NCBI GenBank assembly: GCA_028281525.1
Contig: JANQJR010000059.1
Location: 1 to 61,658 of the forward strand
Direction: 5' to 3'
Length of the DNA stretch: 61,658 nt
Source of the DNA: Magnetovibrio sp.
Lineage (GTDB): Bacteria; Pseudomonadota; Alphaproteobacteria; Rhodospirillales; Magnetovibrionaceae
The number at the start of each line of letters is the position of its first letter. Within the stretch, counting starts at the first letter, position 1. Made by a program: the position numbers and the translations under genes. The notes beneath the pieces were generated by a model. The model saw only the letters and a list, made by a program, of their open reading frames with translations, was not told the DNA's origin and did not search any database. Below, one piece after another: positions 22,704 to 25,283 of the stretch.

Positions 22704-23018
22704 CTAGTTCCCAGATTTCTGCTGGGTGCCGTTCAGGCGGCGTTCCACCTCTTCCAATTCGGCCAATTGTGCGTCGCGGGCGCACACCGCTTGGCCCCGC
22801 AGCGCCCGGACCATGGCGCAGTCCTGCGCGGTGACCGCCGAAATGGCGTGGTCGCTCATGGTTTTGCCGGTGCTGGCGAAGCTGATGCCATCGAACGCCA
22901 ACGAAGCCACTTGGACCGCCGGTGGCAGGGCGGTGATGCAACTGCCGACGCTTGGGACCAAGGTGACTATGGCGGCGATCTTCAGGGCGGCGGTGGCATT
23001 TTGGGGGTAAGTTGGCAT
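22704..23018 (-). CDS. small exported or lipoprotein-like protein
   Basis: A 104-residue protein. The ATG at 23018 lies 5 bases after a strong GGAGG; the GTG six bases earlier sits inside that site and is rejected. The N-terminal hydrophobic stretch AALKIAAIVTLVPSVGSC could be a signal with a marginal lipobox. The segment PPAVQVASLAFDGISFASTG followed by KTMSDHAISAVTAQDC resembles small exported proteins of unknown role that I associate with Rhodospirillales. A CRP/FNR-type site lies about 80-95 bases upstream. Confidence 0.7.
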   Translation of the reverse strand: MPTYPQNATAALKIAAIVTLVPSVGSCITALPPAVQVASLAFDGISFASTGKTMSDHAISAVTAQDCAMVRALRGQAVCARDAQLAELEEVERRLNGTQQKSGN

Positions 23019-23085
23019 TTTCACCTCCGTAATAAAATATGATTTTTGTTAATTATTATTCCCCATAATATATAATGTAATCTTC

Positions 23086-23277: not shown

Positions 23278-24732
23278 TTAGTAGTTGGAAGTGGCCGGTG
23301 CAGCCGGTGTAACAGGCGCAGCTGGCGCAACCGGTGCAAACGGAACACGGCCGAACGGGGTGTAACCGTAGGGGCCATAACCATAGGGGCCGTAGCCATA
23401 CGGGCCGTAGGCGTTATAGCCGTTCCAGGCGTTGTTGCCGTAGGCCTGGGTGTTGCCGCGGCCGGAAAAGCTCATATCGAAATCCGCGCCGCCGTCGCCG
23501 TAGCCATAGCCGCGGCCATCGCCGTAACCGCGATTGCCCCAAGCCGGACCATACGGGCCGTAGGGATGCGGCGGCATAGCGATGCCGACCGGGGTCGTGG
23601 CCGTCGGAGCGGTGTCCGTAGCCGTTGCGGCCGGGGCCGGAGCACCCGTCATCGGGCCGCCATAGACCGGGCTGCCGAAGCCGCCGGTTGGCGTGTTTCC
23701 GGGACCCATGCCCGGGTTCGCCATAGCGCTCTGGTCTATTGTGCCAGGCCCCATGTGGGTCGGCATTTGCTGGGCCGGAACGCGGGCGATTGCCGGAGCC
23801 GCCGGGCTGGCGTCGGTGGCGGGGGCGGTCATGGCCGGTGCGGTCATCGTTTGGGCGGTGGACGTGCTGCCCATCAGACTATCGAGACCCAAAAACTCCT
23901 GCACGCCTTCCTGTTGAGCGAAGCCATAGGCGGCCAGCACCAGCAAAACGCCGGCGGCAGCGTAGCCGGGTTCCTTGAAGATGCTCGGCGTGTTGGTGTT
24001 GGAGGCAGGTTGTGTGGCCGGCGTGGGTGTAGCGGCAGGCTTTGCTTCAGCTTTCGGTGCGGGCGCGGGTTTCGCTTCGGCTTTAGGAGCGGGTTTCGCT
24101 TCAGCTTTCGGTGCGGGCGCGGGTTTCGCTTCGGCTTTAGCAGCGGGCTTTGCTTCAGCTTTCGGCGCGGGCACGGGTTTCGCTTCGGTCTTGGGTGCGG
24201 CTTTTGCAGCGGGCTTCGCTTCGGCTTTTGGCGCAGTTTTGGCCGGAGCTTTCTTCGCGGCGGCCTTGGCCGGGGCCTTCTTCGTCGCGGTGGCTTTGGC
24301 CGTGGTCTTTTTGGCGGCAGCGCTCTTGGCCGGAGCCTTCTTTGCGGGCGCTTTCTTCACCGTGGCCTTTGCAGCCGGCTTGTTTTCGGTCGCGGGCTTG
24401 TCTTCGGGCGTGTCGGTCATGTCAGTCACCTCCGGTTGGGTCGGCGCGCCAGCCGTGATTTTCACGGCGGCGGTTATATCTGCGGTTAAGTCGGTTTTAA
24501 GTGAATCGGTATTCGGGGCAGTATCGTCATCATCTCCACCCACCAAATCCTTGGCGGCGGCGATGGTGCCGGCGGCGCGTTCCGGTCCGAAACCGGGGAT
24601 GGCGCCCAATTTTGCAGGGTCGGCTTTGGCGACGTCTTCGACGGTTTGGAAACCAGCCTCCGTCAGGCGCTCAGCGGCGGCTTTACCGACGCCTTTGATG
24701 TCCTTGATGGTGCTTTTTTCCATGCCGTCCAT
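23278..24732 (-). CDS. helix-hairpin-helix / histone-H1-like / membrane-anchored sulfur-globule-like fusion protein
   Basis: A 484-residue protein of unusual build. Residues 5-60 are a helix-hairpin-helix pair (IKDIKGVGKAAAERLTEAGF and GAIPGFGPERAAG). Residues about 115-240 are Lys/Ala/Pro-rich (KKAPAKKAPAKSAAAKKTT), like bacterial histone-H1 tails. One transmembrane helix lies near 255-272 (AGVLLVLAAYGFA). The C-terminal third is Pro/Gly/Tyr-rich and ends with ADFDMSFSGRGN and repeated GPYGYGPYGY, homologous to the neighbouring 129-residue protein and reminiscent of sulfur globule proteins. Positive charge before the helix suggests the DNA-binding part stays cytoplasmic and the Tyr-rich part is periplasmic. 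Function is unknown. Confidence 0.75.
   Translation of the reverse strand: MDGMEKSTIKDIKGVGKAAAERLTEAGFQTVEDVAKADPAKLGAIPGFGPERAAGTIAAAKDLVGGDDDDTAPNTDSLKTDLTADITAAVKITAGAPTQPEVTDMTDTPEDKPATENKPAAKATVKKAPAKKAPAKSAAAKKTTAKATATKKAPAKAAAKKAPAKTAPKAEAKPAAKAAPKTEAKPVPAPKAEAKPAAKAEAKPAPAPKAEAKPAPKAEAKPAPAPKAEAKPAATPTPATQPASNTNTPSIFKEPGYAAAGVLLVLAAYGFAQQEGVQEFLGLDSLMGSTSTAQTMTAPAMTAPATDASPAAPAIARVPAQQMPTHMGPGTIDQSAMANPGMGPGNTPTGGFGSPVYGGPMTGAPAPAATATDTAPTATTPVGIAMPPHPYGPYGPAWGNRGYGDGRGYGYGDGGADFDMSFSGRGNTQAYGNNAWNGYNAYGPYGYGPYGYGPYGYTPFGRVPFAPVAPAAPVTPAAPATSNY
24046..24190. repeat. 54-bp tandem repeat in the Lys/Ala/Pro tail
   Basis: A 54-bp unit occurs at 24046-24099, 24100-24153 and partly from 24154, coding for alternating PKAEAKPA modules. 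The copies differ at only a few bases, so the tail length is likely to vary between strains. Confidence 0.8.
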
Positions 24733-24893
24733 TGCGGCGTTCCCCTGGGTATGCGTGATCGAAAAGGATCGGTTTTGCGATGCCGTTGCGCAAAAAGGCC
24801 GGCTGCAGAGCCGACCCGCACATACATCTTCGCATATTTTGATGACGTTCGCACCGGAGCGATTGGGCGCTCCGGTGCGAAGTCGTCGTCAAC

Positions 24894-25283
24894 TTACTGC
24901 TGAGCCGGAGCAGCCGGGGCAGCAAAAGCGCGCGGAGCGTACGGGTACGGAGCGTACGGAGCCGCGTAAGCCGGAGCCTGCGGAGCCACCAGTTCGCCCT
25001 TTTCGTTCACGGCCGGAGCCGCAACCGGAGCGTAGGCGTACGGAGCGTAGCCATACGGGTGGTAGCCGTTGTAGCCGTTCCAACCGTTATAGCCGTTGCC
25101 GTAGACGTTGGAGTTGCCGCGGGCGGACATGGAGAAGTCAAAGGCGCCGTCGCCATTGCCAAAGCCGTTGCCCCAGCCGTTGTTGTTGCCGTTGTTCCAG
25201 CCCCAGAAAGCCTGGGCGGAGGTGGCGGACAGAGCAGCCACACCGATGATGGAAGCGATCGCAAGAGTCTTGATGGTTTTCAT
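24894..25283 (-). CDS. sulfur-globule-like secreted Gly/Tyr/Asn-rich protein
   Basis: A 129-residue protein with a clear signal peptide (LAIASIIGVAALSATSAQA) and a low-complexity mature part: FWGWNNGNNNGWGNGFGNGD, then AFDFSMSARGNSN, then Tyr/Pro/Ala-rich YAPYAYAP. The DFxMSxxRGN core is shared with the C-terminus of the adjacent fusion protein. Gly/Tyr-rich small exported proteins with this look coat periplasmic sulfur globules in purple sulfur bacteria; the similarity is compositional plus one short motif, so the role is inferred. It lies 161 bases upstream of the fusion gene on the same strand. Confidence 0.75.
   Translation of the reverse strand: MKTIKTLAIASIIGVAALSATSAQAFWGWNNGNNNGWGNGFGNGDGAFDFSMSARGNSNVYGNGYNGWNGYNGYHPYGYAPYAYAPVAAPAVNEKGELVAPQAPAYAAPYAPYPYAPRAFAAPAAPAQQ

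Follow-up and report, generated by a model that had tools for sequence, protein, structure and literature searches.

Polyhydroxybutyrate (PHB) and polyphosphate (polyP) granules lie in the bacterial cytoplasm, and the proteins that tether them are soluble. As far as the excerpts cited here describe them, PHB granules are joined to the nucleoid by PhaM and PhaF through histone-like domains and by PhaH through a helix–hairpin–helix (HhH) domain (PMC13052382), and polyP granules by AlgP, a protein with KPAA repeats (PMC9239181). In PhaM, PhaF, and AlgP, a single protein has one part that binds the granule and another, histone-like, that binds DNA non-specifically (PMC13052382, PMC9239181, PMC3556143). 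Described sulfur globule proteins (SGPs) are small and secreted, with SgpA–C measuring 11–13 kDa, and the periplasmic ones of Allochromatium have signal peptides (excerpts of PMC10386293). Here we describe a locus of Magnetovibrio sp. in which an SGP domain instead ends a 484-residue membrane protein that adds an HhH domain and a basic linker, and in which the adjacent gene encodes an SGP with a signal-peptide-like start. The DNA analyzed, referred to as the window, is a stretch of 61,658 nucleotides (assembly GCA_028281525.1, contig JANQJR010000059.1) that constitutes contig 17 of a 3.58-Mb genome.

Architecture of the fusion protein and its secreted neighbor

Both open reading frames were found where an earlier note on this DNA had placed them, with the gene for the 129-residue protein upstream of that for the fusion. 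Their features, in window coordinates, are as follows.

23278–24732, minus strand: fusion gene, 484 residues, HhH–Lys/Ala/Pro linker–transmembrane helix–low-complexity spacer–SGP; intact orthologues exist
24547–24705, minus strand: (HhH)2 domain, residues 10–62 (PF14520), from Pfam, AlphaFold, and fold relatives
23977–24534, minus strand: Lys/Ala/Pro(/Glu)-rich linker, residues 67–252, H1-like in composition
23920–23970, minus strand: predicted transmembrane helix, residues 255–271, from hydropathy and AlphaFold; N-in/C-out orientation suggested by the positive-inside rule
23551–23919, minus strand: Pro/Ala/Met/Gly-rich spacer, residues 272–394, putatively periplasmic
23296–23550, minus strand: SGP domain, residues 395–479 (PF17228), with the core DFDMSFSGRGN, from Pfam and shuffles
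24894–25283, minus strand: 129-residue secreted SGP, the fusion's partner gene (PF17228 at 24969–25202)
25209–25283, minus strand: signal-peptide-like N-terminus of the 129-residue SGP, residues 1–25, ending in AQA

The C-terminal domain of the fusion and the neighboring protein both pass the PF17228 cut-off of 26.7 bits in Pfam (43.5 bits, E 5.9e-11, and 52.2 bits, E 1.2e-13, respectively), and in this they resemble SGPs of the SgpA/SgpB type; we take SgpA and SgpB themselves to define that family. Aligned with each other, they reach a local score of 210, compared with a mean of 53 and a maximum of 95 for 500 composition-preserving shuffles (z 16.3). On both grounds, the kinship that the earlier note had read from the two sequences is confirmed, and the possibility that the C-terminus is unrelated to the neighbor is rejected. 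The N-terminus of the neighbor is signal-peptide-like with a hydrophobic core, as judged by eye and from hydropathy, in keeping with its previous description as a secreted, sulfur-globule-like protein. The fusion is without a cleavable signal peptide and has the predicted membrane helix instead.

At the other end of the fusion, the HhH domain matches the HHH_5 profile at 46.7 bits (cut-off 27, E 4.5e-12), in agreement with its initial recognition. It is the only confident part of the full-length AlphaFold model, with block means above 90 over residues 11–60; apart from a low-confidence helix at residues 255–271, the remainder is unstructured, the SGP part included. The HhH model is closest to the N-terminal domains of RadA/Rad51, with several RadA chains superposing at 0.8–0.9 Å over 56–57 columns, and the best Foldseek E value obtained with it was 3.3e-3, with nothing at or below 1e-3. 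Relatives in the Protein Data Bank identified by sequence profile also include Topo V, L32e, NusA, and a reaction-center chain. The linker has no predicted secondary structure in the AlphaFold model, and its richest 60-residue segment consists of 88% Lys, Ala, and Pro, including 16 Lys.

The host genome encodes dsrA and soxB, both over their cut-offs, and contains six SGP places on five contigs. dsrA exceeded its cut-off in 21 of 21 genomes tested and soxB in 15; because SGP-free relatives are part of the tested set, neither gene is a specific mark of SGP genomes. Cultivated marine magnetotactic Alphaproteobacteria produce sulfur globules if supplied with a sulfur compound (excerpt of PMC4169400).

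Recurrence, membrane topology, and gene unit

The complete HhH–linker–transmembrane–SGP architecture recurs in four other Magnetovibrio genomes: G002 (403 residues, or 420 from the first start), G003 (464), G004 (526), and G005 (458). G004 is Magnetovibrio blakemorei MV-1, which presumably forms sulfur globules itself. In all four, a secreted SGP gene precedes the fusion gene on the same strand at a distance of 128–166 bp, the corresponding distance in the window being 161 bp. An intact fusion is thereby present in five of the six Magnetovibrio genomes searched, the window's own included; in the sixth, G001, a metagenome-assembled genome (MAG) that is 67% complete and in 430 contigs, the HhH–transmembrane part and the SGP part lie in different frames beside an SGP gene. 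In a further genome, G007, the start of an HhH domain is seen and the contig ends there.

Members were also found in two other families. The Rhodospirillaceae MAG SI037_bin24 (G022) encodes a 319-residue protein with HHH_5 and SGP (G022a), whose gene follows a tandem SGP gene after 174 bp. It also encodes a second HhH–transmembrane protein (G022b) that contains a charged repeat and ends in a Gly/Tyr/Pro-rich stretch, with a different SGP gene 39 bp away. In G487 and G488, of a third family, the HhH–transmembrane proteins contain a charged coil and end in a YPY-rich stretch. Their genes are about 1.5 kb from an SGP gene, and in G487 this interval is occupied by a DsrE2 sulfur carrier (232 bits, cut-off 210) and an ArsR-type regulator. 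At E 0.01, HHH_5 was matched by all nine aligned members and SGP by six, whose SGP stretches are over the family cut-off; G022b, G487, and G488 are members by order and place, because they do not match the SGP profile. The order of parts laid out in the earlier note is found intact in other sulfur-oxidizing Alphaproteobacteria, namely the four Magnetovibrio genomes and G022.

SGP exceeded its cut-off in 17 of 317 genomes of the order, and eight of these 17 contain an intact member if the looser forms of G487 and G488 are counted. No fusion member was seen in the other 300 genomes; six of them matched the family profile, all with small HhH proteins. Another 14 genomes in which SGP or an SGP-like stretch was matched (eight in the order and six outside it, three of the 14 being from one family outside the class with 3–4 SGP places each) yielded no HhH–SGP protein. 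At E 0.01, the profile matched 10 of these 14 (G085, G509, G052, and G592 were without a match), in SGP stretches or in HhH domains of long frames. Re-inspection of HhH frames covered five of the 14, with the HhH rows of G523 and G065 outside it; four frames were NusA-like in length and ends, by eye, and the 346-residue HhH frame of G041 had no SGP match. Among 384 further genomes of the class, 15 matched, and the combined architecture appeared in none of the loci opened, which contained small basic-tail HhH proteins or NusA-like frames of about 500 residues, or in G994 no HhH match. The profile searches scored a limited number of candidates per genome, and a diverged member could be missed. 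For the genomes tested, the idea that the fusion is a general feature of all SGP bacteria is rejected.

The small HhH proteins found in the order include four with strongly Lys-rich tails (L063 9914–10282, L093 1501–2082, L110 6724–7218, and L092 1525–1962). Like the fusion, they carry a basic tail after an HhH domain, which is homologous to that of the fusion; unlike it, they lack SGP and show no clear membrane helix, and their tails are richer in Lys. They represent a nucleoid-protein-like family from which the N-terminal half of the fusion may derive.

The scan behind the hydropathy and locus-architecture results covered 62 sources, namely the window and the long loci, with the short loci L001–L054, L079–L107, and L118–L145 left out. 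AlphaFold places a helix at residues 255–271 of the window protein at low confidence (block means 49–58), which together with hydropathy supports the single-pass anchoring proposed at the outset. All nine members have a hydrophobic stretch between the linker and the C-terminal part; in G022a it is accompanied by another, weaker one that contains Arg. The 15 residues ahead of the stretch are net positive in eight of nine members (uncharged in the window protein), the 15 residues beyond it are net negative in eight of nine (net 0 in G022a), and the entire C-terminal side has a negative balance in the five Magnetovibrio members. None of the nine contains cysteine. By the positive-inside rule, these flanking charges suggest that the HhH domain and linker face the cytoplasm, with the SGP part on the periplasmic side.

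The two genes of the window are separated by a gap with two hairpins.

24733–24893: gap between the SGP and fusion genes; equivalent gaps in L055, L056, L057, L058, and L059
24850–24879, minus strand: intergenic hairpin 1, with a 12-bp stem, after the SGP stop codon
24792–24816, minus strand: intergenic hairpin 2, followed by five T, terminator-like by eye, ahead of the fusion gene

By eye, two hairpins of other sequence occupy the same places in the gaps of other Magnetovibrio loci, including G001, and the T-run that follows hairpin 2 there differs in length between loci, in some consisting of only two or three T. Folding energies of the gaps are 3.4–5.3 standard deviations below those of mononucleotide shuffles in the five intact Magnetovibrio loci. 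The hairpins are a possible step-down in expression between the secreted and the anchored SGP; the secreted form would be produced in surplus over the anchored form, which would arise in lower amounts through read-through or from a promoter of its own. An Rfam scan of the window returned two tRNAs and nothing else. Downstream of the fusion, positions 22704–23024 hold a small lipoprotein-like frame with a counterpart of about 46% identity at the corresponding place in G003.

Tailed RND exporters at SGP loci

Tracts rich in Lys, Ala, and Pro occur on two unrelated SGP-linked membrane proteins, the fusion and a resistance–nodulation–division (RND) exporter. RND permeases at other SGP loci have a C-terminal extension of 190–344 residues, of which 41–53% are Lys, Ala, or Pro.

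L069 12214–16419 (G000:C33, in the window's own genome), L113, L115, L155, L117, L108, L065: tailed RND exporters
L061, L158, L162, L163, L165: further tailed RND exporters

All 12 tailed proteins read to the C-terminus have the motif RRGIRLK near that end, and the nearest SGP gene lies 1.3–3.7 kb away on the same strand in every case. Of the source genomes, eight belong to the order, one belongs to the class but not the order, and three are from beyond the class, the last presumably those of purple sulfur bacteria. The copy in the window's own genome matches ACR_tran at 494 bits, and its tail matches the HC2 histone H1-like nucleoprotein family (PF07382) at 40.6 bits against a cut-off of 40; with the NCBIfam H1-like model it scores 40.9, below the cut-off of 80. 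By eye, several of the extensions contain additional hydrophobic stretches. Of the three extensions from beyond the class, two have no net basic charge. Two more divergent RND homologues encoded at these loci have no tail. The shared features with the fusion are linkage to SGP genes, location in the membrane, and the long tract; the exporter is otherwise an unrelated AcrB-type transporter with its tail at the C-terminus, and HhH and SGP domains are absent from the one scanned. G041 has a tailed exporter and no fusion. An exporter gene beside sgpD is mentioned in an excerpt of PMC10386293.

RRGIRLK is present in RND frames of 11 of the 17 SGP genomes of the order (in G488 the tail is cut by the contig end) and also in three non-SGP genomes, G010, G012, and G594, the last without a Lys/Ala/Pro-rich tail. 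The examples from G010 (L226) and G012 (L227) combine such a tail with the motif; both genomes are of the same family, SGP was not found in them, and they are 86% and 81% complete, respectively. These counts are based on 30 of the 47 places of the pattern plus G487, read in L108, with the remaining 16 outside the count. Beside the exporter and near SGP genes, L108 (330–992) and L061 (2296–3117) each contain a Pro/Tyr/Gly-rich frame with a signal-like stretch, which may encode a further globule coat protein.

Possible roles of the fusion protein

Based on the order of its parts, the fusion could be a membrane-anchored (type II) SGP that ties periplasmic sulfur globules across the inner membrane to the nucleoid. 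The SGP domain would join the globule's protein coat in the periplasm beside the co-encoded secreted SGP, the single membrane helix would fix the protein in the inner membrane, and the cytoplasmic Lys/Ala/Pro-rich linker, perhaps with the HhH domain, would hold DNA non-specifically. Globules tied in this way through the inner membrane to the nucleoid would have their site of formation, their number, and their sharing at division set by the tether; partitioning to daughter cells is one possible outcome among several. We prefer this reading to the alternatives below and hold it tentatively, as one that may well be right yet is slightly easier to doubt than to accept.

The link to the chromosome is plausible by analogy with PhaM, PhaF, PhaH, and AlgP and from the composition of the linker. 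The Lys/Ala/Pro-rich tails of the RND exporters, one of them with its HC2 match, speak for the tether independently, and the DsrE2 and ArsR-type neighbors in G487 as well as dsrA and soxB in the window's own genome also fit it. The fusion may work like these proteins, and it is not filed here as a member of their group: no phasin family was among its Pfam or NCBIfam matches, and the SGP domain takes that place. The granules bound by PhaM, PhaF, and AlgP are cytoplasmic, whereas that of the fusion is expected in the periplasm, so that the fusion must cross the membrane. PhaH is from Caulobacter crescentus, also an alphaproteobacterium, and is a granule tether that uses an HhH domain for DNA; in the excerpt describing it, that domain is C-terminal and the PHB-binding part N-terminal, whereas the HhH domain of the fusion is N-terminal (PMC13052382).

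Several observations weigh against a nucleoid tether. The earlier note's list of parts and its SGP assignment are borne out by Pfam and by conservation; the H1-like character it gave to the linker holds for composition alone, as the window protein has no match to a histone family in Pfam up to E 1, and HC2 is matched by one of the nine aligned members (E 0.0035). In the three most distant members (G022b, G487, and G488), the basic linker is short, at 28–34 residues, and the C-terminus has no match to the Pfam SGP model; that of G487 is equaled by five of 500 shuffles when compared with its neighbor. The net charge of the HhH domain is 0 in the window protein; among the other eight intact members, it is -2 to -5 in six and +2 and +3 in those from G022, compared with +1 to +5 in four HhH-only proteins with basic tails. 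The second hairpin of the domain is degenerate, having lost its second Gly, in four of the five intact Magnetovibrio members. DNA contact, if real, would therefore depend mainly on the linker. Judging from its relatives L32e, NusA, and the reaction-center chain, the HhH domain can serve as an RNA- or protein-binding module. The predicted membrane helix is only moderately hydrophobic in the window protein (best Kyte–Doolittle mean 1.27–1.29), and the topology argument is weaker outside the genus, because the entire C-terminal side is net positive in the four members there. Since several SGP genomes have no fusion, it is not needed for globules as such, and in many species globules appear randomly placed (excerpt of PMC10386293).

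In one alternative, the protein is a membrane anchor with no chromosome contact. The SGP domain would dock globules at the inner membrane, close to the enzymes through which sulfur enters and leaves them, and the HhH domain and basic linker would bind a cytoplasmic protein, a ribosome, RNA, or polyP in place of DNA. A cytoplasmic protein, RNA, or polyP as partner of the cytoplasmic half is a serious rival: the HhH domain is neutral or acidic in seven of nine intact members, some of its relatives contact RNA or protein, and the linker is short in distant members. The DsrE2 neighbor in G487 points the same way, as does the further oxidation of globule sulfur in the cytoplasm of A. vinosum by rDsr (excerpt of PMC10386293). 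The linker of Magnetovibrio, however, is long and Lys/Ala/Pro-rich like the tails of AlgP and PhaF, and the strongly Lys-rich tails of small HhH homologues in relatives resemble nucleoid proteins; on balance, we consider anchoring alone possible, if doubtful. Another alternative is a transmembrane sensor in the manner of ToxR or CadC, in which the SGP domain would report globule load and the cytoplasmic part would alter transcription of sulfur genes. Such a sensor would account for a DNA-binding-like part and an SGP part in one polypeptide and for the regulators near the SGP locus of G487, but no winged helix or other sequence-specific DNA-binding domain was matched in the fusion, most of which is low-confidence and unstructured in prediction, and tails of this composition are taken as broad DNA binders in known cases. 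A sensor is accordingly quite improbable. Somewhat less improbable, though still unlikely, is that the fusion is simply one more coat protein, bound to the membrane and carrying a recruited but neutral fragment of a nucleoid protein as its N-terminal half. Six SGP places in the genome make redundancy likely, and HhH-plus-basic-tail proteins lacking SGP form a possible donor family; yet Magnetovibrio and two other families preserve the core residues of the HhH domain and the full order of parts while the linkers diverge. That the reading frame is a chance or assembly-made join of two genes can be rejected as vanishingly improbable: G001 does have the two parts in different frames, but it is the incomplete, fragmented MAG noted above, and the frame is intact in five Magnetovibrio genomes and one of another family.

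The nucleoid tether can be extended to a broader proposal, namely that Proteobacteria storing sulfur use two unrelated SGP-linked membrane proteins, the fusion and the tailed RND exporter, both with H1-like cytoplasmic parts, to bind an inclusion outside the cytoplasm to the chromosome across the inner membrane. We regard this as rather unlikely. We know of no described organelle–nucleoid link that crosses a membrane in such a manner. In the open-licence PubMed Central articles searched, the terms "sulfur globule protein" and "helix-hairpin-helix" never occur together, and among the titles and abstracts listed for sulfur globules with nucleoid and segregation, or with RND exporters and SgpD, none describes such a protein. 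A 2025 review of organelle positioning treats carboxysomes, magnetosomes, PHB, and polyP, with "sulfur" and "periplasm" nowhere in its main text.

More generally, the articles listed in these searches offer no explanation for how periplasmic sulfur globules are placed and shared out. A conserved gene of defined architecture in the cultured Magnetovibrio blakemorei MV-1 makes this question directly testable, and if the fusion is indeed a tether, the nucleoid would be used as a ruler for an object on the other side of a membrane.

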